A stretch of DNA of 64,000 nucleotides from Eubacterium maltosivorans. GTDB lineage: Bacteria; Bacillota; Clostridia; Eubacteriales; Eubacteriaceae. Both the position numbers and the translations under genes were made by a program. The notes below the pieces were generated by a model. The model made no database searches and had not been told where the DNA came from. It saw only the letters and a list, made by a program, of their open reading frames with translations. Below, piece by piece: positions 6,930 to 61,079 of this stretch. The stretch lies in NCBI RefSeq assembly GCF_002441855.2, contig NZ_CP029487.1:1178001-1242000 (forward strand), in the 5' to 3' direction. Position 1 is the first letter of the stretch. Every line of letters begins with the position of its first letter.

Positions 6930-7025
6930 ATTGTTTTAACGCCTCCTTGAATTGTTCCAGATTATTTTATCATAAACCCATCATTTTAGATACCCGTTTT
7001 AGCTGCTCGCCAAAGCAAAAATCCC

Positions 7026-8774
7026 CTACTCGCTTCCCTCAAACTGGCTGTTGTAAAGTTTTGTATAAAAACCATTTTGAGCCAGCAAAGATGCATGGTT
7101 TCCCTGCTCCACGATACGTCCCTGGTTCATCACCAGAATAATATCCGCCTCGCGGATGGTGGACAGCCGATGCGCAACCACGAAGCTGGTTCTACCCCTC
7201 ATCATATCGTTAAATGCGTTTTGAATACGGATCTCAGTTCGTGTGTCAATGCTGCTGGTCGCCTCATCGAGAATGAGCATTGGCGGTCTGGTGAGCATGA
7301 CCCTGGCGATGCAGAGAAGCTGCCGCTGCCCCTGGGAGAGGTTCTCTCCGCCCTCGGCAATCTGTGTGTCGTAGCCCTTTTCAAGCTGCCTGATAAAGCT
7401 GTCGGCGTAGGCCTTTCGAGCGGCCTCGACGATCTCATCATCGCTGGCATCCGGTCTGCCATAGGCAATGTTCTCCCGTATCGTTCCTGAAAACAGCCAG
7501 GTATCCTGGAGCACCATGCCGTACTGCTCTCTAAGACTGCTCCGGGTCACACCTTTTACCGGATGCCCGTCCACGGCAATAGTACCCCGGTTGACATCGT
7601 AAAAACGCATAAGCAGATTGATGATCGTGGTCTTTCCGCAGCCTGTCGGCCCTACCAGCGCAATCCGCTGCCCCGGTTCGGCATTAATGTTCAAATCCCT
7701 GATGAGGCGCGTATCCGGCTGATATGAAAAATCCACATGTTCTGCGCGCACCGCTCCTTCTGCCAGCGGCAGCGCCGGAAGCGCCGCGTCGCTTGGTTCT
7801 GGCGGTTCATCCAGCAGGGCAAAAACCCTTCTGGCCGAGGCAAAGGCCGTCTGGATTTCTGTCAGCACACCAGTCACCTCATTAAAGGGCTTGGTGTACT
7901 GGTTAGCATAGGCTAAAAAGCTCGACAGCTGCCCTACACTCAGGCCTCCGCGTATGGCTGAAAGCGCTCCGGTTATGCCCACAGCCGCGTAAACCATAGC
8001 GTTAACAAAGCGCGTGGAAGGATTGGTCAGCGAAGAATAAAACTGCGCCCGAACGCCGCAGCGGTACAAGCGCTGGTTAATGGCCTCAAACTCCTGCTTT
8101 GCTGCTGCCTCATGGCTGAAAGCCGTGACCACCTTCTGATTGCCTACCATTTCCTCCACAAAACCACTCAGATCGCCGCGCACCACAGATTGCTCCCTGA
8201 ATTTGTTATAGGAAAGCCTGGCGATAATCCCTGCCACAAAAATGGATAAAGGCGTGACCAGGACTACCACTACTGTAATGCGCAGATTGATCGACAGCAT
8301 AAAGCCCAGCGTTCCCAGAATCGTCACGACACCAGTAAAAAGCTGAGTAAGGCCCTGAAGCAGACCATTTGAGATCAGTTCGATATCATTGACAAAACGG
8401 CTCATCAAATCCCCGTGCGAGTGACTGTCGATATACTTAAGCGGGACGGTATTAAATTTTTCAAAGGCCTCCTTCCGGATATCCTGAATTGTTTTGTAGG
8501 TAATCTGATTGGTGCACAGGCTCATCAGGTATTGAAAGATAACCGTGACGCCGATATTGACACCCAAAATTACCACATAGCGCATAATCCCCGAAAAATC
8601 CACCTGACCCGGCCCCACGATATAATCTACCCCGCGGCCGATCAAAACCGGCATCCACAAAGCAAGGGCAATGCTGATCACCGCGCAGACAAGGCCGAGA
8701 AAAAGAAAAATGCCATAGGGCTTTGCATAGGCCCACAGCCTCGGAATCACCGGTATTTTGTTTTTTTCATTCAT
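7026..8774 (-). CDS. ABC exporter half-transporter (canonical NBD), MdlB/LmrA-like
   Basis: 582 residues: an N-terminal six-helix exporter domain (about 1-310) and a C-terminal ATPase. The ATPase has Walker A GPTGCGKTT, signature LSQGQ, Walker B LILDEATSS with catalytic Glu, and H-loop VVAHRLST. Its start overlaps the stop of the upstream exporter gene by 4 bp (ATGA), so the two are translationally coupled and should form a heterodimer. This subunit holds the intact catalytic Glu and switch His, while its signature (LSQGQ) departs from LSGGQ. The substrate is unknown; drugs, lipids or peptides are usual for the family. No terminator was seen between it and the DUF362 gene downstream (96 bp). 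Confidence 0.93.
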   Translation of the reverse strand: MNEKNKIPVIPRLWAYAKPYGIFLFLGLVCAVISIALALWMPVLIGRGVDYIVGPGQVDFSGIMRYVVILGVNIGVTVIFQYLMSLCTNQITYKTIQDIRKEAFEKFNTVPLKYIDSHSHGDLMSRFVNDIELISNGLLQGLTQLFTGVVTILGTLGFMLSINLRITVVVVLVTPLSIFVAGIIARLSYNKFREQSVVRGDLSGFVEEMVGNQKVVTAFSHEAAAKQEFEAINQRLYRCGVRAQFYSSLTNPSTRFVNAMVYAAVGITGALSAIRGGLSVGQLSSFLAYANQYTKPFNEVTGVLTEIQTAFASARRVFALLDEPPEPSDAALPALPLAEGAVRAEHVDFSYQPDTRLIRDLNINAEPGQRIALVGPTGCGKTTIINLLMRFYDVNRGTIAVDGHPVKGVTRSSLREQYGMVLQDTWLFSGTIRENIAYGRPDASDDEIVEAARKAYADSFIRQLEKGYDTQIAEGGENLSQGQRQLLCIARVMLTRPPMLILDEATSSIDTRTEIRIQNAFNDMMRGRTSFVVAHRLSTIREADIILVMNQGRIVEQGNHASLLAQNGFYTKLYNSQFEGSE

Positions 8775-51234: not shown

Positions 51235-51663
51235 CTAAAACTGCGCAAATCCTTTTCCAAAGTCAACGCACTCTTCCTCACCATCACTATCTGGTGTTTC
51301 CTGAATAATCAGCCCTTCGTCATAAAGCACTGCCCCAGCTTCACGAACACGATCCTCCCAGTCTCTCATCCATTCACCGTCGCCCCAGCCGTAAGAGCCA
51401 AACAAAGCCACTTTTTTATCTTTTAAGTTGGCTTCAATATCCGTAAAGAACGGATCAAAATCGCCTTCTTCAAGCACTTCTGCCCCCATCGACGGACATC
51501 CGAAAACAATATGATCATAATCCGCGATTTTGTCTTTGCTAAAATCCGTTACAAAAAAAGTCTCTGAACTTTTCCCACCTTTTTCAATACCGTCCGCAAT
51601 ACGATTGGCCATTAATTCTGTATTTCCTGTGCCGCTCCAATAAATAACTGCAATTTTATCCAT
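51235..51663 (-). CDS. Flavodoxin (short-chain)
   Basis: 142 residues. The FMN phosphate loop is YWSGTGNTELMA, followed by VFGCPSMGAEVLEE and FGSYGWGDGEWM around the isoalloxazine site, the pattern of clostridial flavodoxins. It is a low-potential electron carrier that replaces ferredoxin when iron is scarce. Placement between DUF3793 and the ATC-hydrolase-like gene, opposite feoA genes, fits an iron-limitation response. SD AAAGGAG is present. Confidence 0.95.
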   Translation of the reverse strand: MDKIAVIYWSGTGNTELMANRIADGIEKGGKSSETFFVTDFSKDKIADYDHIVFGCPSMGAEVLEEGDFDPFFTDIEANLKDKKVALFGSYGWGDGEWMRDWEDRVREAGAVLYDEGLIIQETPDSDGEEECVDFGKGFAQF

Positions 51664-51687: not shown

Positions 51688-52251
51688 TCAACCAGCTTGC
51701 ATTAATTGTCTGATTGAGGCTCCCCGATTAATATAGCTGCAAACTACATCTCGGCATTTTGTATATTTTTCAAATAATTTCAATTTATTTTCAACGTCCG
51801 AATATACCTTCCAACAACCACACACCTGGCAGTTTTTTCCCTTATTGAGGATAAACCCTTCAACATCTTCTATGGGATATCCCAGAAAAACACCAATTTC
51901 GTGTGGAAAATCTCCTGTTGCACTTACATTTTTTTTAAGGTTATCCAGCAGTTCATTAAAAGTCATATTTTCTTGATAACCATATTTTTCTAAAAAGTTT
52001 ATTACTTTTGGTTCTTTAAGACTCTCTGTAAGCTTCTTTTTTTGATAAACCAGAACCAATACGCGACGTTCTGTTTCCCATAACGGTTCAAGGTATAAAC
52101 CTTTATGATTCAAAAAGGCATTATACTCAGATAACAAATCTGAAATATCTGCAAACTGCTTCTTTGCGCAGCAGATGAGATTCGCTTCTTTTATTCCCAT
52201 CAGGGTTGGGGCACAATGAAAACCCAGTAATTTATCAAAATCATTCAGCAT
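51688..52251 (-). CDS. DUF3793 family protein
   Basis: 187 residues. The N-terminal HCAPTLMGIKEANL, the central FPHEIGVFLGYPIEDVEGFI and the cysteine-bearing CQVCGCWKVY match DUF3793 (PF12672). It is found in Firmicutes, often beside flavodoxin and feo genes; the function is unknown. The Cys cluster (CxxCxC) could bind metal. It is first in the minus-strand operon. A GTTAG/CTAAC repeat lies about 60 bp upstream of its start. Confidence 0.88.
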   Translation of the reverse strand: MLNDFDKLLGFHCAPTLMGIKEANLICCAKKQFADISDLLSEYNAFLNHKGLYLEPLWETERRVLVLVYQKKKLTESLKEPKVINFLEKYGYQENMTFNELLDNLKKNVSATGDFPHEIGVFLGYPIEDVEGFILNKGKNCQVCGCWKVYSDVENKLKLFEKYTKCRDVVCSYINRGASIRQLMQAG

Positions 52252-52308
52252 CTGTCTTATTTCCCCTTTTATATGTTCAATGATTCCAGCGTTAACTTTG
52301 GAATTATT

Positions 52309-52335
52309 GTTAGTGCTAGCTAACTAACTAACTAA
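52309..52335. promoter_or_regulatory. GTTAG/CTAAC repeat in the divergent iron-island control region
   Basis: Inverted repeat GTTAG-TGCTAG-CTAAC followed by further CTAA direct repeats. It lies upstream of the DUF3793-flavodoxin operon and is similar to repeats at marR and at the ncRNA start. A shared regulator is inferred. Confidence 0.4.
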
Positions 52336-52454: not shown

Positions 52455-52483
52455 CTTGACAATATTATCACAAAAGGTTAAAC
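52455..52483 (+). promoter_or_regulatory. Sigma-A promoter of the feoA-P-ATPase operon
   Basis: TTGACA (52455-52460), 17 nt, TAAACT (52478-52483), giving a leader of about 58 nt before the first feoA. Confidence 0.7.
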
Positions 52484-52547
52484 TTTAAACAAGATATCAG
52501 ATGCGGCTAACATTTTTATGAGCATCTAACTGAATTAGGAGGTATGA

Positions 52548-52766
52548 ATGATGCCGTTAAGTATGGCCCGTATGGGAGAACCAGTAAGAATAATGAAAAT
52601 TAATGGTAAAGATGAAACAAAACGTTTTTTAAATAGTTTGGGATTTGTTATTGGTGATAATGTCACTGTCGTTTCTCAACTAGGCGGCAACATGATCATC
52701 AATGTTAAAGATACACGAGTTGCAATTGATAAATCAATGGCAAATCGAATAATGATCAACGAATAA
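52548..52766 (+). CDS. FeoA domain protein, first copy
   Basis: 72 residues with the SH3-like FeoA fold: VRIMKINGKDETKRFLNSLGFVIGD, then VTVVSQLGGNMIINVKDTRVAID. It starts after AGGAGG. FeoA normally supports the ferrous iron permease FeoB at the membrane's inner face. Here a second FeoA follows 6 bp later and no feoB is in the window, so the pair may serve a distant FeoB or act with the metal ATPase downstream. Confidence 0.93.
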   Translation: MMPLSMARMGEPVRIMKINGKDETKRFLNSLGFVIGDNVTVVSQLGGNMIINVKDTRVAIDKSMANRIMINE

Positions 52767-52772
52767 GGAGAT

Positions 52773-53000
52773 ATGAATATGAAAACTTTAAAAGCCACTC
52801 CATGTGGTCAAACAGTAAAAGTTGTAAAAATTGAAAACAAAGGGCCAATCAAACGTCGTATTATGGATATGGGAATTACCAAAGGTGTCGATATATTTGT
52901 CCGAAAGGTTGCTCCTTTAGGCGACCCGATAGAAGTAACAGTACGAGGTTATGAGCTATCACTTAGAAAAGCTGACGCCGAAAGTATTATTGTAGAGTAA
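52773..53000 (+). CDS. FeoA domain protein, second copy
   Basis: 75 residues. TVKVVKIENKGPIKRRIMDMGI, here cited by its core KRRIMDMGITKG, and VTVRGYELSLRKADAESI are the classic FeoA signatures; it is closer to textbook FeoA than the first copy. SD AAGGAGA is present. An 89-bp gap separates it from the small membrane protein gene. Confidence 0.93.
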   Translation: MNMKTLKATPCGQTVKVVKIENKGPIKRRIMDMGITKGVDIFVRKVAPLGDPIEVTVRGYELSLRKADAESIIVE

Positions 53001-53089: not shown

Positions 53090-53332
53090 ATGAAGAATGT
53101 TTTAGAAAATGATAAGTTGACTTTTTTTATTGGCGGTATTGCGGCGGCCACTCTTGGTGTAAAAGCTTTAAAGAGTAAATGCGCCCATAAATTCTTTGTA
53201 AGTGCTTTAGCCTCTGGTATGAAATTGCAGGATGATGCTAAAGTAATGTATGAAAATATCAAGGAAGATGCTGTTGATCTCTGTTATGAAGCAAAACTCG
53301 AGTCAAAAAAAGCTGAATCTGCTGGAGAATAA
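53090..53332 (+). CDS. Small membrane protein, DUF6110-like; candidate FezA
   Basis: 80 residues. One hydrophobic segment (about 10-26, FFIGGIAAATLGVKAL) is followed by a helical, charged cytoplasmic part. This resembles the small DUF6110-type proteins found upstream of heavy-metal P-type ATPases in clostridia. In Clostridioides difficile a small membrane protein, FezA, and the P1B6-ATPase FezB make ferrosomes, membrane-bound iron-phosphate stores. The same order (small membrane protein, 14 bp, ATPase) is seen here. The FezA assignment is inference from size and position. SD AAGGAG is present. Confidence 0.7.
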   Translation: MKNVLENDKLTFFIGGIAAATLGVKALKSKCAHKFFVSALASGMKLQDDAKVMYENIKEDAVDLCYEAKLESKKAESAGE

Positions 53333-53346
53333 GGAGTAGTCAGACT

Positions 53347-55437
53347 ATGAAATACACCATCGTTCACGATATGCCTGGACGCATTCGTCTGCGTTGCGGG
53401 CGTAATGCTTTTTCTCTTGATGAAGGCTACAGTATAACTTCTGTTTTGATGGCACAAACCATAGTTACCGACGCAAAGGCTTCCAGTATCAACGGAAGCC
53501 TTTTAATTTTTTATGTCGATGACTCCCGTTCTTTACTTTTAGACTTCATTGATACTTTAGTGCCTGCAGAACTTCCCGTCATACCGCCAGCCGAGAGAGA
53601 CACCACTTCTGAAGTTGACGCAGACTTTCAATATGCGCTTGCGTTTAGAATTGTCCGCCGATTACTTTTCCGGGGGCTTCTTCCCTCTCCTGTCCGTCAT
53701 GTAATCACTTTATTCCGCGCTGTCCCCTATGTTGTGCGCGGAATAAAGAGCTTGCTTAATTTCCGTATTAATGTCGATGTTTTAGATGCATCCTCCATTG
53801 GCGTTTCTTTAGCACAGGGAGATTATAGAACCGCAAGCTCCATTATGTTTCTCCTGTCGCTTTCAGATTTACTGGAAGACTACACAAGGAAAAAAACAAA
53901 GCTTGCCCTGGCAGGAAGCTTGTCTGTCAATGTTGACACCGTATGGAAACAGGATAGTTATGGCAACTTTATAAGCACACCCATCAGCCAGCTTGAAGAG
54001 GATGATACTATTATTGTCCGTACCAGCGGCACAATCCCAGTAGATGGTACTATCTGTGAGGGTGAAGCCTACATTAACGAAGCCTGTATGACGGGCGAAT
54101 CTCAGTCCGTTTTAAAAAAAGCGGAGGATTCAGTCTATGCAGGAACCGTCGTTGAAGACGGCAGCATTGTTATAAAGGTACGTGCTATTGGAAACGGGAC
54201 TCGTATGAACAAAATCATCGAGCTTATTGACCAATCTGAAAACCTGAAAGCGGATGTACAGAGCCATGCCGAAAATTTAGCGGACTCCATTGTTCCCTTC
54301 AGCTTTCTGGCATCTGGTCTGGCGTTTTTACTCACCAGAAACGCGACAAAAGCGGCCTCTGTCCTGCTGGTTGACTACTCCTGCGCCATCAAACTTGCAA
54401 CACCGATCTCCGTCATCTCAGCTATGCGTGAAGCCGCAAACCATAAAATCGTGGTAAAGGGTGGGAAATTTCTCGAATCTTATGCTCTGGCAGATACCAT
54501 TGTTTTTGATAAAACCGGAACGCTCACCGTTGCCTCTCCAAGTGTCAGTGAGGTTATTCCGTTTCCACCGTATAATAGGACAGAGGTTCTGAAAACCTCG
54601 GCCTGTCTTGAAGAGCATTTCCCTCACAGTGTTGCTCACGCCATTGTTCACAAAGCAGAACAGGAAAATCTAAAGCACCGTGAAGAGCATGCCGAAGTAG
54701 AATATGTCGTTGCACATGGGATTCGTTCAAAGCTTCACGGCAAAAAGGCGCTTATTGGCAGCTACCATTTCATTGTAGAGGATGAATGGATTCCCGTAAC
54801 GCCAGAACAAAAATCCATCATCGAAGAAAAAGGTCATGGCAAATCGGCGATTTTCTTAGCTTTGGGTGACACATTGGCCGGAATGATCTGTATTGATGAC
54901 CCTCTCCGTCCAGAAGCTGCTGAAACCATACAGGCACTCCGCGAATCTGGCATAAAGAAAATTATCATGCTTACTGGCGATAGTGATGAAGCCGCGAGAG
55001 ACGTCTCAGCCCAGCTTGGCATTACGGAATACCAGGCGCAAATTTTACCAGAAGACAAGGCATCAGTCATCGAGCGTCTGAAGGAAGAGAGCCACCAGGT
55101 TATCATGGTGGGTGACGGCATTAATGATTCACCGGCTTTAGCCGCTGCAAATGTCTCTGTTTCCATGAAAGATTCCTCTGATATTGCCCGTGAGGTTGCT
55201 GATATTACGCTACTCAGCACAGACCTCAGAGCACTTGTTACTTTGCGGCACCTCAGCCTGTCTTTAATGGAACGCATCCAAAAAAATTTCCATGTCATCA
55301 TTGGATTTAACAGCCTGCTGCTGGCAGGCGGGCTCATTGGGTTTATTCCTCCTGCTGCCTCTGCCTTTTTACACAATTTTTCTACAATGTTTATCAGCGC
55401 GGCCAGTATGCGGCCCTGCTTAAAGCCACCTGTATGA
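53347..55437 (+). CDS. P1B-type metal ATPase with SCA motif; candidate FezB
   Basis: 696 residues. The N-terminus has MPGRIRLR (9-16) in place of a CxxC metal-binding domain. The actuator is TGES (249-252), the phosphorylation site DKTGT (Asp388) and the hinge GDGIND (589-594). The membrane metal site is Ser345-Cys346-Ala347 in DYSCAIKLATP instead of CPC, and the HP-type locus reads HFPHSVAHAI. An SCA site and a PGR-type N-terminus are, to my memory, marks of the P1B-6 group, which includes FezB of ferrosomes. Location beside FeoA genes supports iron as substrate. It probably pumps iron into a membrane compartment or out of the cell. Confidence 0.85.
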   Translation: MKYTIVHDMPGRIRLRCGRNAFSLDEGYSITSVLMAQTIVTDAKASSINGSLLIFYVDDSRSLLLDFIDTLVPAELPVIPPAERDTTSEVDADFQYALAFRIVRRLLFRGLLPSPVRHVITLFRAVPYVVRGIKSLLNFRINVDVLDASSIGVSLAQGDYRTASSIMFLLSLSDLLEDYTRKKTKLALAGSLSVNVDTVWKQDSYGNFISTPISQLEEDDTIIVRTSGTIPVDGTICEGEAYINEACMTGESQSVLKKAEDSVYAGTVVEDGSIVIKVRAIGNGTRMNKIIELIDQSENLKADVQSHAENLADSIVPFSFLASGLAFLLTRNATKAASVLLVDYSCAIKLATPISVISAMREAANHKIVVKGGKFLESYALADTIVFDKTGTLTVASPSVSEVIPFPPYNRTEVLKTSACLEEHFPHSVAHAIVHKAEQENLKHREEHAEVEYVVAHGIRSKLHGKKALIGSYHFIVEDEWIPVTPEQKSIIEEKGHGKSAIFLALGDTLAGMICIDDPLRPEAAETIQALRESGIKKIIMLTGDSDEAARDVSAQLGITEYQAQILPEDKASVIERLKEESHQVIMVGDGINDSPALAAANVSVSMKDSSDIAREVADITLLSTDLRALVTLRHLSLSLMERIQKNFHVIIGFNSLLLAGGLIGFIPPAASAFLHNFSTMFISAASMRPCLKPPV

Positions 55438-55459: not shown

Positions 55460-55834
55460 ATGAAAACACTTTATCTTATTATTGGTTTTTTATTCTTCGG
55501 GCTTGGAGCCATCGGTGTTATCTTGCCGGTGCTCCCAACCACCCCTTTCCTTCTTGTCGCAAGCTATTGCTTCGCGCGGGGCAGCAAGCGGTTTAATGAC
55601 TGGTTTTTGAGTACCAAAATTTATCAAAAACATCTGGACAGCTTCGTTAAGGAACGAGCCATGACACTGAAAACTAAGATTTCTCTTCTGTCCTTTGCCT
55701 CAGCTATGCTGATCCTGGCGTTCTGTCTGGTCGATGTCATTTATGCGCGTATCCTCATCATTGCGGTAATGATTTTTAAATACTACTACTTCATCTGTAG
55801 GATTAAAACCATTCAGGAGGTACAGAATGATTGA
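55460..55834 (+). CDS. DUF454 (YbaN-like) inner-membrane protein
   Basis: 124 residues with about four hydrophobic segments. FLFFGLGAIGVILPVLPTTP and ARGSKRFNDWFLSTKIYQKH are DUF454 hallmarks. The family is often found next to haem, iron or CydDC-like genes; no activity is established. It overlaps the next ABC gene by 8 bp and lies 22 bp after the P-ATPase, so it belongs to the same operon. SD AAAGGAG is present. Confidence 0.9.
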   Translation: MKTLYLIIGFLFFGLGAIGVILPVLPTTPFLLVASYCFARGSKRFNDWFLSTKIYQKHLDSFVKERAMTLKTKISLLSFASAMLILAFCLVDVIYARILIIAVMIFKYYYFICRIKTIQEVQND

Positions 55835-57611
55835 CAAACGCCTGACACATATGATGGGTAAGGCTAACCACTATATTTTTTTAAATGTGTTCTTTAACTG
55901 GATCTGTCTTTTAGCAAACATGGCGATTGTTTTCACCATCGCCTGGCTTTTGCAGAATATTTTAACAGACGGTATTGAAAGCATTAAAATATCCGGCTAT
56001 CTGGTAATCATTTGTGTGTCTTTGATTGTACGGTTTGCCGCTACTCTTATGGCTTCAAAAATGTCTTACGCAGCTTCCTCCGGTGTAAAAAAAACATTGC
56101 GTGAAAAAATATATGAAAAACTTCTTCGCCTGGGCATAAGCTACAATGAAAAAATTTCTACAGCCGAAGTAGTTCAGGTTTCTGTGGAGGGTGTTGAACA
56201 ACTGGATATTTATTTTGGCAAATATCTTCCGCAGCTTTTTTATAGTCTTCTCGCACCGTTAACCCTGTTTGCAGTTCTCTCGTTTGTTAATTTGAAAACC
56301 GCACTGATCCTTTTGATCTGTGTGCCGCTTATCCCTGTTTCAATTGTAGCTGTACAAAAAATCGCCAAGAGGCTTCTATCAAAATATTGGAGTACCTATA
56401 CAGAACTAGGAGACAGCTTCCTTGAAAATCTTCAGGGGTTGACGACCCTTAAAATTTATGAGGCGGATCATTATAAAAATGAAGAAATGAATGCTCAGTC
56501 CGAAAAATTCCGAAAAATAACCATGAAGGTCCTCACCATGCAATTAAACTCTGTAACTGTAATGGATATTATCGCCTACGGGGGCGCTGCCGTCGGGATT
56601 ATTCTGGCGGTCACAGAATTTATGAAAGGAAATATTTCCTTTGGCGGTACCTTTGCACTGATTATGCTTTCAGCGGAATTCTTTATCCCATTGCGTCTGC
56701 TGGGCTCTTTTTTTCACATCGCAATGAATGGAATGGCCGCATCGGATAAAATTTTTCGTCTGCTTGACTTTGATGAGCCTGTCCACGCCGCGGGTAATAT
56801 TGATCCAGAGGACGCGGATATTCGTTTAAATCACATTGAGTTTTCTTATGATGTCGGGCGCCCTGTTCTGGAAGACGTCTCCCTAAGTATTCCAAAGGGA
56901 AAATTTGTATCCATCGCCGGAGAATCTGGCAGTGGAAAAAGTACCATCGCTTCACTTATTATGGGTGCTCATCGCAGTTACCGCGGCGATATCAGTATTG
57001 GAAAGCAAAATTTAAAATCCCTGTCTGAAGCCAGCATTATGGAAAATATCACCCTCGTAAGTCACAACAGTATAATTTTCAAGGGAACTGTTCGCGACAA
57101 TCTTTTAATGGCCCAGCCAAATGCCAGTGACGAAGCACTGTACGCTGCACTCAAACGGGTTTGTCTCTATGATTTTCTTATAGAACAGCAAGGGCTTGAT
57201 ACTCAGATATTGGAGAATGGTTCAAACCTTTCCGGAGGCCAGTGTCAGCGTCTGTCCCTCGCGCGGGCGCTTCTTCACGACTCGGAAATCTATATTTTCG
57301 ATGAAGCAACTTCTAACATAGATGTGGAGAGCGAAGAACAGATCATGGACGTCATCGAGGATCTGGCACATACCAAAACGGTTGTGCTGATCTCCCATCG
57401 ACTGGCCAATGTGCGTTCCGCCGATCAAATTTATGTTTTGTATAAAGGGCGTATCATCGAATCCGGAACGCATACAGAGCTTTTGGAAAACAGCAGCTAC
57501 TATGCAGATCTGTATTTTACCCAGACATCTCTTGAAAATTATGGAAAGGAGACTCCTGTCTATGCGCAGAAATCCCATCTCAATCATGATGAGGCTTATC
57601 GGGCTGGTTAA
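55827..57611 (+). CDS. CydDC-like ABC exporter half-transporter, first subunit
   Basis: 594 residues. The exporter membrane domain (about 1-315) includes YFGKYLPQLFYSLLAPLT, typical of the CydD side of CydDC. The ATPase has Walker A GESGSGKST, signature LSGGQCQR, Walker B YIFDEATSN and H-loop LISHRLAN. CydDC of E. coli exports thiols and affects haem loading of cytochrome bd. Here, in an anaerobe next to FeoA and an iron-type P-ATPase, a thiol, haem or iron-related cargo is plausible. It overlaps the second subunit by 50 bp. Confidence 0.9.
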   Translation: MIDKRLTHMMGKANHYIFLNVFFNWICLLANMAIVFTIAWLLQNILTDGIESIKISGYLVIICVSLIVRFAATLMASKMSYAASSGVKKTLREKIYEKLLRLGISYNEKISTAEVVQVSVEGVEQLDIYFGKYLPQLFYSLLAPLTLFAVLSFVNLKTALILLICVPLIPVSIVAVQKIAKRLLSKYWSTYTELGDSFLENLQGLTTLKIYEADHYKNEEMNAQSEKFRKITMKVLTMQLNSVTVMDIIAYGGAAVGIILAVTEFMKGNISFGGTFALIMLSAEFFIPLRLLGSFFHIAMNGMAASDKIFRLLDFDEPVHAAGNIDPEDADIRLNHIEFSYDVGRPVLEDVSLSIPKGKFVSIAGESGSGKSTIASLIMGAHRSYRGDISIGKQNLKSLSEASIMENITLVSHNSIIFKGTVRDNLLMAQPNASDEALYAALKRVCLYDFLIEQQGLDTQILENGSNLSGGQCQRLSLARALLHDSEIYIFDEATSNIDVESEEQIMDVIEDLAHTKTVVLISHRLANVRSADQIYVLYKGRIIESGTHTELLENSSYYADLYFTQTSLENYGKETPVYAQKSHLNHDEAYRAG

Positions 57612-59214
57612 GCCGCTGATCCACATCATGCTGCTCACGATCCTTATGGGTGTTGCGGGCTATCTATGTGCAATTTTTATTACCATCCTGGGCAGCTATG
57701 GTATTCTTTCCATTCTGGATATCCAGAAAATAGATTTAAAGCTGCTTTTTATGGTCATCCTTATCCTGGGGCTTTTGCGCGGCGTGCTTCATTATATTGA
57801 ACAGGCCAGCGGCCACTATATCGCGTTTAAGCTTCTTGCTATTATCCGTGACAAGATTTTTAAAGCCCTTCGCAAGCTTGCTCCTGCAAAACTGGAAGGC
57901 AGGGATAAAGGCAATCTGATTGCTGTCATTACTGGCGATATCGAGCTTCTGGAAGTATTTTATGCGCACACCATCGCCCCCATTGCCATCGCTATTATCA
58001 CCTCTTTAATCATGGTAATCTTCATTGGGCAGTTTCATCTGCTGTTCGGTCTTATTGCCGTCGTCGCCTATCTTTGTGTAGGGCTTCTCATTCCTGTAGC
58101 CGCCTCACGGCTGGGGGCAGATAAAGGAAGAAGCTATCGGAGACTTTTTGGCGAGCTCAACACCTATTTTCTGGACAGCCTGCGCGGTTTAAAGGAATAT
58201 ATCCAATACCATTGCGGCCCCTCAAGGCTAAAAGAGATCACACGCCAGTCCGATGCTCTTGATATTCAGCAAAAAGCCTTGAAAAATCAGGAAGGTTTAT
58301 CGGCTGCTGTTACAAATACAGTTATCCTGTTTTTTGATCTCGCGATGCTTTTTTCCTCTATTATACTAATGCGTCAGGGAATTGTCGGCTTTGAGGGTAT
58401 TTTAATTCCAACCGTTGCCTTATTCAGCTCCTTTGGTCCAACCGCAGCGCTCAGCAGCCTTTCAAACAATTTGCTTCAAACCTTTGCCGCTGGAGAGCGT
58501 GTGCTGGATATTCTGGACGAAAGTCCAGTTGTTAGTGAAGTTGAGAAGGGTGTGGACATTACCTTTGACGGAGCCTCATGTAAAAACCTCTCTTTCGCCT
58601 ATGACAACGAAATAATCCTCGACAATATTACCATGGAACTCCCCACCTCAAAGGTTATTGGTATTCATGGAAAAAGCGGCTCTGGAAAGTCTACCTTTCT
58701 TAAACTGCTCATGCGCTTTTGGGACCGCCAGTCCGGCTGTCTTGAGCTTTCCAGCCATGATATCCGAGCTGTCAACACCCATAGTCTCCGTAAAAATGAA
58801 AGCTATGTCACTCAAAGCACCTACCTTTTTAATGATACTATCGGGGCAAATATTCGTATCGCTCGTTTGAACGCCAGTGATGAGGAAGTGGCTGAAGCCG
58901 CTAAAAAAGCCGCTATCCATGATTTTATCACTCAGCTTCCTAAAGGGTATGATACTCCCGTAGGCGAGCTTGGAGAGTCTTTGTCGGGTGGTGAACGGCA
59001 GCGCATCGGGCTGGCCAGAGCCTTTTTACACCAGGCGCCCTTTATTCTTCTCGATGAGCCTACCAGTAATCTGGACAGCCTGAATGAAGGGATTATTTTG
59101 AAATCCATCCGGGAGCATGCCGCTAACCATACCGTTGTGTTGGTTTCTCACCAGCGTTCCACCATGGGTATCACCGACCTGGATTATTCCATAGAAAACG
59201 GGAGGCTCTCCTAA
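57562..59214 (+). CDS. CydDC-like ABC exporter half-transporter, second subunit
   Basis: 550 residues from ATG 57562, chosen for AAAGGAG 10 nt upstream; the frame stays open further upstream but has no SD there. Membrane domain, then ATPase with Walker A GKSGSGKST, signature LSGGERQR, Walker B ILLDEPTSNLD and H-loop LVSHQRS. It should form a heterodimer with the preceding subunit. Both subunits keep their catalytic Glu, unlike the exporter pair at 7.0-10.5 kb. Its stop overlaps the next start (TAATG). Confidence 0.9.
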   Translation: MRRNPISIMMRLIGLVKPLIHIMLLTILMGVAGYLCAIFITILGSYGILSILDIQKIDLKLLFMVILILGLLRGVLHYIEQASGHYIAFKLLAIIRDKIFKALRKLAPAKLEGRDKGNLIAVITGDIELLEVFYAHTIAPIAIAIITSLIMVIFIGQFHLLFGLIAVVAYLCVGLLIPVAASRLGADKGRSYRRLFGELNTYFLDSLRGLKEYIQYHCGPSRLKEITRQSDALDIQQKALKNQEGLSAAVTNTVILFFDLAMLFSSIILMRQGIVGFEGILIPTVALFSSFGPTAALSSLSNNLLQTFAAGERVLDILDESPVVSEVEKGVDITFDGASCKNLSFAYDNEIILDNITMELPTSKVIGIHGKSGSGKSTFLKLLMRFWDRQSGCLELSSHDIRAVNTHSLRKNESYVTQSTYLFNDTIGANIRIARLNASDEEVAEAAKKAAIHDFITQLPKGYDTPVGELGESLSGGERQRIGLARAFLHQAPFILLDEPTSNLDSLNEGIILKSIREHAANHTVVLVSHQRSTMGITDLDYSIENGRLS

Positions 59215-59513
59215 TGGCATGTGTAAAATCTGAACAGCATATTATTGAAAAAATGATCCGCCTCTACTGCTTAAAAAAGCACCGCCAAAAAAACCTGTGT
59301 CCCGATTGCCAGGCACTTCTGGATTATGCTCTGGGCCGCCTGGAGCGATGTCCTTTTCAGGATTCAAAATCATTCTGCAGCCATTGTCCGGTCCACTGCT
59401 ACAAACCGGAAATGCGAAAACGCGTGCAGGAGGTAATGCGTTTTTCAGGCCCCCGGATGCTTTTTCATCATCCTGTTTTGGTGGTTAAGCATATGATTGA
59501 AAGCAATCGCTGA
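59214..59513 (+). CDS. YgbA-like protein (nitrous oxide-stimulated promoter family)
   Basis: 99 residues with eight cysteines in a fixed pattern (CPDCQALLDYALGRLERCPF, then FCSHCPVHCYKPEMRKRV) and a C-terminal VMRFSGPRMLFHHP. This matches PF11756; in E. coli, YgbA is induced by nitrosative stress through NsrR. The cysteines suggest metal or Fe-S binding. It is translationally coupled to the ABC pair and is the last gene of the iron operon, hinting that the operon answers to iron/NO damage. Confidence 0.88.
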   Translation: MACVKSEQHIIEKMIRLYCLKKHRQKNLCPDCQALLDYALGRLERCPFQDSKSFCSHCPVHCYKPEMRKRVQEVMRFSGPRMLFHHPVLVVKHMIESNR

Positions 59514-59560: not shown

Positions 59561-60094
59561 ATGAAATATTTTTACTTGCTCGTTAATGATCAAAATATTA
59601 AAAACTGGACCCTCGTCAATCAAGTTTCGATAAGAAAAAATGGGAAAACACATTGCTATTTCCCGGATATTCTCTATCGTCATCCCTTTGACGAGGGATC
59701 TTTATATCTCTCTGTCGATGATGCTCTGAGCACTGATGTTACCGCTGCGCTGGAAACAGCTTTTAGAAAGCTTCCGCCCCATCGTATTGTTCTGCTGAGG
59801 ATTAATGACAACCCTGAATGGCAAAAAACCTTTTCCCGCTGGAAGGCTATGCTTGAAAAAGATGAGGAGCCCTTTTTTACCCCAGAGGAATCTCTGCTGA
59901 TGGAAAAAACAAAGTCCGCGCTTCGCCTGACTCAGACACAAAAAATCACTTTTACAAAAGCATGCGTTTCGAAAAAGCTCAGAGATTCAGCCTGCCTTTC
60001 TAATACTCTTCTCCCTTATACTGAGCTTAAAATTACCATCAAAAAAGAAAGGAGCTTCGCTTTTAATGCATTACTTAAAAACCTCTGGTGCTAA
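59561..60094 (+). CDS. Unknown protein, partner of the SPL-like radical SAM gene
   Basis: 177 residues; I do not recognise a family. It is soluble, with no signal peptide or cysteine cluster. The N-terminal half is beta-rich (KYFYLLVNDQNIKNWTLVN), with an Arg/Lys-rich C-terminal half. It overlaps the radical SAM gene by 29 bp, so it is translationally coupled and probably acts with it. Its SD is buried in a strong hairpin. Confidence 0.75.
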   Translation: MKYFYLLVNDQNIKNWTLVNQVSIRKNGKTHCYFPDILYRHPFDEGSLYLSVDDALSTDVTAALETAFRKLPPHRIVLLRINDNPEWQKTFSRWKAMLEKDEEPFFTPEESLLMEKTKSALRLTQTQKITFTKACVSKKLRDSACLSNTLLPYTELKITIKKERSFAFNALLKNLWC

Positions 60095-61079
60095 GCCCTT
60101 TTCACACATTTACATTGAGAAGGGGGCAGCCCATCATCCAAACACACAGGCTATTTTACAAAAAATCAATTACGACAGTCTTATTTATATTGATGACTAC
60201 TCACAGATTTTCAACCGGCACCATCAGGATTTCATTGCACAGAAGCGTTCCCCAAATCTTATTTTAGCCCGAAAAAAACAGGATTTTTATTATGATGGTT
60301 CTCCCTACTGTGAAAACTTTGGACATGCACGCTTTTACTATACTGGTATTATCATGAACTGCCTTTATGATTGCAGCTATTGTTACTTAAAAAGTATCTA
60401 CCCCTCCGGGCACATAGTTATTTTTGTCAATAATGAGGATTTCATCACCTCTGTAGAAGAGGATTTATTATCCAGCTGTGAGCCTCTTTATCTGGCCATT
60501 TCCTATGACAGTGATTTGATGGCGCTTGATCCGCTTACCCACTTTCTGGGTCCATGGCTCGCATTAGCTAAAAGACATGCTAACCTGACGATCGAGGTGA
60601 AAACAAAAGCCGGGCGTTTTCCCATCTCAGACCCGCCTCAAAATGTCATTTTTGCCTGGTCGCTGCTCCCCGATCCGGTAATCCATCTTTACGAACGTCA
60701 TACCCCTTCCCTTGCAACGCGGATGGCGGCAGTATCTCAGGCGCTTAGAGCCCATGCGACAGTTCGATTCTCCATTGAGCCCGTAATGCCTATCAACAAC
60801 AGTGCGAGGATATACCGCGACTTTATCGACAGCCTAGGAAAACAGTTTGATTTAAACCAGCTGCTGGATATTAACATCGGCGGTTTTCGAATCAGCGGTA
60901 AGCAGTTTAAGACCTTTTATAAAAAAGATCCGACCTGTCCGGTTTTTGCCTGGTCTTTAACCGAAAGCACCTGCGACGTCAGCTATGCAGATAGCGATGC
61001 TCTGATCAGGCAAATAGAGCGGGATTTGAAAAGCTTTGTAAAACCTGAAAAAATCATTGTATACCAAACCGCCCCTTGA
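60066..61079 (+). CDS. Spore photoproduct lyase-like radical SAM protein
   Basis: 337 residues. The radical SAM cluster motif is Cys99-LYD-Cys103-SY-Cys106, with an SPL-like context (YTGIIMNCLYDCSYCYL) and FSIEPVMPI later. SPL splits the thymine dimer of UV-irradiated spores by hydrogen abstraction; this family (COG1533-like) also includes non-spore members of unknown use. The conserved extra Cys of true SPL near the C-terminus may correspond to Cys in DPTCPVFAW or STCDVSY, which I cannot settle. SD AAAGGAG lies inside the upstream gene. Confidence 0.82.
   Translation: MHYLKTSGAKPFSHIYIEKGAAHHPNTQAILQKINYDSLIYIDDYSQIFNRHHQDFIAQKRSPNLILARKKQDFYYDGSPYCENFGHARFYYTGIIMNCLYDCSYCYLKSIYPSGHIVIFVNNEDFITSVEEDLLSSCEPLYLAISYDSDLMALDPLTHFLGPWLALAKRHANLTIEVKTKAGRFPISDPPQNVIFAWSLLPDPVIHLYERHTPSLATRMAAVSQALRAHATVRFSIEPVMPINNSARIYRDFIDSLGKQFDLNQLLDINIGGFRISGKQFKTFYKKDPTCPVFAWSLTESTCDVSYADSDALIRQIERDLKSFVKPEKIIVYQTAP

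Follow-up and report, generated by a model that had tools for sequence, protein, structure and literature searches.

We analysed a 64,000-nucleotide stretch of DNA from Eubacterium maltosivorans (contig NZ_CP029487.1, positions 1,178,001 to 1,242,000; hereafter the window), which comes from a genome that forms a single contig of 4.34 Mb. In it, two FeoA genes are followed, after a gap of about 90 bp, by a gene for a small membrane protein of the DUF6110 family and a gene for a P1B-type ATPase, and then by genes for a DUF454 membrane protein, two ATP-binding cassette (ABC) half-exporters that resemble CydD and CydC, and a YgbA-family protein (Table 1). Each junction from the DUF6110 gene to the YgbA gene measures 22 bp or less, or is an overlap. 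The gene order is preserved entire, from the flavodoxin gene on the opposite strand to the YgbA gene, in two further genomes of this genus, and in one of these the ATPase is 91% identical.

The small protein and the ATPase resemble FezA, a membrane protein, and FezB, a transporter, which in Clostridioides difficile are required for ferrosomes and are repressed by Fur (PMC12574912); their genes there are CD630_05910-05920 (PMC11651100). An earlier note on this DNA had named the pair as a candidate fez locus, and its coordinates, the 14-bp gap between the two genes and the SCA motif at ATPase residues 345-347 were all reproduced from open reading frames and alignment, while the N-terminal MPGRIRLR that it pointed out corresponds to ATPase residues 9-16. 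We consider that the window probably holds a fezAB locus of the ferrosome-making kind, standing in one row with a CydDC-like cassette for the export of heme or another tetrapyrrole.

The small membrane protein and its partner ATPase

The pair was compared across 117 P1B-6-type ATPase loci, which combine a genome-search set with 80 named loci from a public genome collection. DUF6110 proteins are encoded by 34 of the 393 Clostridia genomes sampled. In 112 of the 117 loci it is encoded on the same strand directly upstream of the ATPase, at a median gap of 22 bp and within 150 bp in 109. In the first set this pairing is partly built in, because DUF6110 was the bait for many of the loci; in the second set, for which the ATPase alone was the bait, DUF6110 stands directly upstream in nearly all. 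The recurrence of the pair, together with the row kept in congeners, is therefore more than chance.

A membrane metal site that reads SCA, where CPC would otherwise stand, marks the P1B-6 class of pumps, and a site of the SCA type is found in 116 of the 117 family members. HN near the C-terminus is present in 115 (H676-N677 in the window, invariant in the alignment), and 21 of 22 P-type pumps outside this family lack it; an HN motif in the last membrane helix is a described feature of P1B-6 ATPases (PMC9374683). In Pfam the window ATPase matches E1-E2_ATPase and HAD domains, with a sub-threshold HMA_2 match at the N-terminus. The N-terminal domain has no CxxC, and in the AlphaFold model residues 4-70 are predicted to follow a ferredoxin-like order of strands and helices. 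In a quick maximum-likelihood tree of 54 rows (42 fez rows and 12 other P1B pumps), all fez rows, C. difficile included, are split from the other pumps by a branch with a support of 100, and the window ATPase and its congener group with that of locus L094 (98). The placement inside P1B-6 that the earlier note had proposed is thus upheld, and by its sequence the ATPase is a member of that family. Identity as a copper or zinc P1B pump was rejected on the absence of CPC and the separate clade. A fold search with the window protein returned known P1B and other P-type pumps only. A second type of fez ATPase, in which ADFSCAVEV replaces VDxSCAxKL, occurs at L066, L068, L070 and L071, in other genera of the same family, and two genomes (G399 and G405) hold both types.

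The tie to C. difficile runs through strain HC132, in which locus L101 encodes a 131-residue DUF6110 protein and a 699-residue SCA ATPase. A search of that genome with the window ATPase gave a single strong match (44%, 633 bits), the next being an ordinary P1B pump at 236 bits. We take L101 to be fezAB because it holds the sole P1B-6-like ATPase of that genome, that is, by uniqueness and not by locus tag. C. difficile FezB is reportedly a P1B-6 ATPase, in the account of Pi et al. from 2023. The FeoA genes upstream and the heme-type cassette downstream set the window locus apart from that of C. difficile. In both, a DUF6110 gene directly precedes the gene for a P1B-6 ATPase that carries SCA and HN, and family, motif, gene order and tree all agree with the fezA-fezB arrangement that had been suggested for the window. 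Judged in this way the window pair belongs to fezAB, and its identity as FezAB, through kinship, is well supported.

The 80-residue protein scores 26.4 bits against the DUF6110 profile, just above the 26-bit cut-off, and is 36% identical to the L101 protein, which itself scores 83.2 bits. This match, and a gene directly 5' of the fezB-like gene, sustain its reading as FezA. The AlphaFold model predicts, at low confidence (predicted local distance difference test, pLDDT, 62), a helix of membrane-spanning length and a long second helix; the C-terminus reads ESKKAESAGE. A PDB sequence search with the protein gave no match. A 2022 paper on mycobacterial zinc efflux had already noted the kinship of DUF6110 with DUF1490 (PacL) proteins, and that DUF6110 genes usually accompany those of P1B-6 pumps (PMC9374683). 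In a profile scan of 44 FezA proteins, DUF1490 was matched by 13 (best E 8.5e-7) and not by the window protein. PacL1 scaffolds its own pump in membrane foci, hence the role for FezA that we propose below.

The genes around the pair also recur. Counted up to 7.5 kb away from the ATPase, FeoA occurs at 36 of the 117 fez loci, FeoB at 21, flavodoxin at 19 and DUF3793 at 18. For FeoA this compares with 1 of 34 control loci, taken from the cassette described below (p 5e-4), a comparison made imperfect by unequal locus lengths and search radii. The iron neighbourhood claimed for the pair, with its two FeoA genes, is thereby supported. The further argument that the iron demand of an acetogen makes it a fitting host is weak: in a sister genus (g2) that belongs to the same family, none of the five genomes sampled has DUF6110.

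Table 1. Features of the fezAB-like locus, in window coordinates
Feature	Position	Strand	Basis
Flavodoxin, divergent neighbour	51235..51663	-	PF00258 E 3e-20
DUF3793 protein, divergent neighbour	51688..52251	-	PF12672 E 2e-60
Candidate promoter of feoA1, TTGACA-17-TAAACT	52456..52484	+	promoter scan
FeoA 1	52548..52766	+	PF04023 E 2.2e-17
FeoA 2	52773..53000	+	PF04023 E 9.1e-21
fezA-like DUF6110 small membrane protein, 80 aa, short form	53090..53332	+	PF19605 E 7.7e-6
fezB-like P1B-6 ATPase, 696 aa, SCA 345-347, HN 676-677	53347..55437	+	family scan, alignment, tree, model
DUF454 membrane protein	55460..55834	+	PF04304 E 9.6e-39
CydD-like ABC half-exporter, H312 equivalent present	55827..57611	+	TIGR02857 397 bits, cut-off 435; residue check
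CydC-like ABC half-exporter, H85 equivalent present	57562..59214	+	TIGR02868 298 bits, cut-off 329; residue check
YgbA-family protein (YgbA_NO)	59214..59513	+	PF11756 E 4.5e-41

The CydDC-like cassette and its linkage to fezAB

Family scans agree with the earlier note that DUF454, a CydDC-like exporter and a YgbA-like protein adjoin the pair, with flavodoxin and DUF3793 on the opposite strand. The idea that the set as a whole serves as ferrosome accessories is not supported. Some 39 of the 393 genomes encode a close relative of the CydD-like protein, defined by a score above about 390 bits, and 34 CydD-like loci have an adjoining CydC-like gene, with DUF454 nearby in 21 and YgbA in 11. The heme-binding protein Shp is encoded at 7 of these loci, and any NEAT, Shp or importer gene at 11 (hand count). 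Pfam families in sampled neighbourhoods include Shp, NEAT, Peripla_BP_2, FecCD and an iron-dependent (DtxR-type) repressor. In Streptococcus pyogenes the putative ABC transporter genes siaD and siaE lie 3' of a heme importer in one MtsR-controlled operon (PMC6593403), and an Avibacterium DUF454 gene rises in expression under iron restriction (PMC7970244). The likeness to the streptococcal sia/hts systems is one of gene order only, the cassette standing in other Clostridia beside genes for Shp or NEAT, a binding protein, FecCD and an ATPase. DUF454-CydDC-YgbA is thus a separate clostridial cassette, partly tied to heme uptake; as a general ferrosome set it was rejected because it is mostly found elsewhere, away from fezAB.

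E. coli CydDC is a heme transporter in which CydC H85 and CydD H312 are the axial ligands (PMC10374445). The window pair, about 25% identical to it, is likewise made of two half-exporters and has both axial histidines, as do 36 of 38 and 37 of 37 aligned relatives; CydD F195 is replaced by W and Y311 by F. Among ten other ABC exporters the H312 equivalent occurs in none and the H85 equivalent in three, which makes H312 the telling residue. The histidine at the H85 position (motif CSHLGAFR or close) was seen in exporter halves at L082 4481-6277 (-), L084 2739-4541 (-) and L087 13926-15701 (-), and H85 alone is therefore unspecific for heme transport. Judging by these residues, the CydDC-like pair probably transports heme or a related tetrapyrrole, although protoheme itself is not assured.

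In the window, as in two congeners, cassette and fezAB make up a single tight row, and such a row is seen in one genus (Eubacterium) only. A second junction is found in an Acutalibacter metagenome-assembled genome (L179), where genes for the CydD-like and CydC-like proteins, YgbA, DUF454, a regulator that we take to be of the AraC type, FezA and FezB follow one another on one strand. Weaker linkages occur at L114, where the CydD-like gene begins 5.9 kb past the end of the ATPase frame, and at L083, a fragmentary contig on which DUF454, pieces of the cassette and a heme-type importer are found some 2-5 kb away from fezA. Both cassette and fezAB are present in 18 of the 393 sampled genomes (Fisher p 1e-11). 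Within families, counted by hand, 17 co-occurrences were seen against 9.0 expected (p 1.9e-4), which we grade as moderate evidence because shared descent within genera still inflates the figure. There is thus moderate evidence for a functional link between cassette and fezAB. The tight row with a cassette that in related bacteria often neighbours heme-uptake genes points to a connection between the storage of iron and the handling of heme in this bacterium. The joined locus was not found described in the literature surveyed, two primary ferrosome papers lying outside that survey.

Proposed roles and rival explanations

We propose, as the most likely reading, that an iron-storage pair is expressed together with an exporter of heme or another tetrapyrrole; the substrates, transport direction, organelle formation, co-transcription and iron control in this scheme are what we infer. 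Iron shortage would bring about joint expression of the FeoA genes, FezAB and the cassette. FezB, as a P1B-6 pump, would move Fe(II) out of the cytosol via the SCA/HN membrane site, and once iron returned it would load Fe(II) into membrane compartments organised by FezA. By analogy with its mycobacterial relative PacL, FezA may, through its helical tail, concentrate the pump in patches of membrane or stabilise it there. If such a patch budded inward, iron would collect in the lumen, as iron phosphate should the process resemble that of C. difficile. Meanwhile the cytosol would be cleared of surplus heme, or of a related tetrapyrrole, by DUF454, the CydDC-like pair and YgbA.

Several observations weigh against this hypothesis. 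The FezA-like protein is shorter than most: together with those of L094, L099 and L063 it measures 75-81 residues, against a median of 100 among fez loci, and at 80 residues it lacks the long tail of the 131-residue C. difficile protein. C. difficile FezB falls in a separate 36-row clade (support 96) from which the window ATPase is absent, so that the latter is a P1B-6 pump but not of the branch of the tested FezB. The ABC pair is nearest to CydD and CydC in NCBIfam but lies below both curated cut-offs (397 < 435 and 298 < 329 bits), on which ground true CydDC identity was rejected and the pair classed as CydDC-like; it departs further from E. coli CydDC at the propionate-binding residues of CydC, where R81 is replaced by Q and R136 by H. 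The window locus has no heme importer, unlike the streptococcal operon in which siaDE follow siaABC; NEAT gave no match genome-wide in the window genome, in a search run without a positive control; and most cassette loci have no adjoining fezAB. Scans of the window for Fur (7-1-7) and DtxR operators found nothing above shuffles, a silence that for Fur says little because the same scan was also unsuccessful at C. difficile fezA.

The strongest competing explanation of the pair is plain metal efflux, in which a plasma-membrane pump for Fe(II) or another divalent metal is served by a PacL-like scaffold and forms no intracellular organelle. FezA is related to PacL, and PacL1 clusters CtpC in the cell membrane; the mycobacterial PacL1-CtpC zinc efflux system likewise sets a small membrane protein of a related family beside a P1B pump, and has the HN motif (PMC9374683). 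The separate branch and short FezA of the window would also fit, and older reviews left the metal specificity of P1B-6 undefined. A PacL scaffold has a DUF1490 domain, a C-terminal metal-binding motif and a CPC partner pump, a combination absent from the window pair, whose pump carries SCA. The two-gene architecture and the SCA/HN residues, which are those of the C. difficile pair needed for ferrosomes, argue against plain efflux, as does the FeoA neighbourhood, and we regard it as rather unlikely. The Desulfovibrio-type fez operon, which includes the DUF4405-type cytochrome FezC (Grant et al. 2022; PMC10979944), shares a FezB-type pump with the window, but no DUF4405 or FezC was found among the window genes scanned, from flavodoxin through the peptidyl-prolyl isomerase gene.

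For the cassette, we see about an even chance that it is unrelated to ferrosomes and came to lie 3' of fezAB by accident or through a shared need for expression at low iron. The restriction of the tight row to one genus and the many cassette loci away from fezAB are what this would predict; the second junction in another order (L179), the looser ones at L114 and L083, the excess co-occurrence within families and the persistence of the row in a congener whose ATPase is 91% identical are harder to fit to it. We think it unlikely that the CydDC-like pair exports a thiol or other small molecule against redox or nitrosative stress, with YgbA as a stress protein. NCBIfam does label CydD and CydC as thiol reductant exporters, the propionate-binding arginines are gone, and E. 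coli ygbA is NsrR-regulated and responds to nitric oxide (PMC5320621). However, both axial heme histidines are present, that equivalent to H312 being absent from all ten control exporters; Shp, NEAT or importer genes recur as neighbours; and E. coli CydDC itself transports heme (PMC10374445). Very improbable, in our estimate, is a direct action of the cassette on the ferrosome, in which the CydDC-like exporter would move heme or a tetrapyrrole into the lumen and DUF454 and YgbA would be new accessories. The lumen is topologically equivalent to the cell exterior; such transport would join heme iron to stored iron in one organelle.

If an iron-storage pair is indeed expressed here with a heme or tetrapyrrole exporter, ferrosome-type iron storage reaches a tractable acetogen genus, and the short FezA could reveal the minimal requirements of the scaffold. 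DUF454 and this CydDC-like subfamily gain a concrete functional hypothesis. The pair itself would not astonish a ferrosome specialist; the clear, testable lead is its recurring junction with the heme cassette, which would tie iron storage in anaerobes to the handling of heme and stands beside the cytochrome FezC of other ferrosome operons.

Regulatory sequences and flanking genes

The palindrome TGACAATATTATCA (52457-52470) overlaps the -35 box of the candidate feoA1 promoter; its bases are identical in the congener L062, and it has no further exact copy genome-wide. In a genome-wide scan, sites with one mismatch to TGACAATATTATCA sit inside reading frames, and thus no regulon emerged. A single Fur-family gene is present in the window genome. 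A clear Fur box was seen at L077 alone, where the near-perfect TGATAAAAATTATCA (13/14) lies 5' of fezA (p < 0.01 against shuffles). At L099, a DtxR-like regulator and a presumably DUF2325-like protein are encoded directly 3' of fezB, at 6946-7668 (-), and form a candidate built-in metal switch. Just 3' of a promoter-like site of the divergent DUF3793 gene, the window carries tandem TAAC/TAGC repeats, GTTAGTGCTAGCTAACTAACTAACTAA (52305-52335), which are mostly conserved in L062.

The start of the CydC-like gene at 57562 is our probable assignment within an open frame that opens at 57409. Downstream of the YgbA gene, positions 59561-60094 (+) encode a 177-residue protein that matches nothing in Pfam or NCBIfam, and positions 60066-61079 (+) have a weak match to spore photoproduct lyase (PF20903, E 1.3e-8). 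These two frames overlap, and both are kept in congeners.
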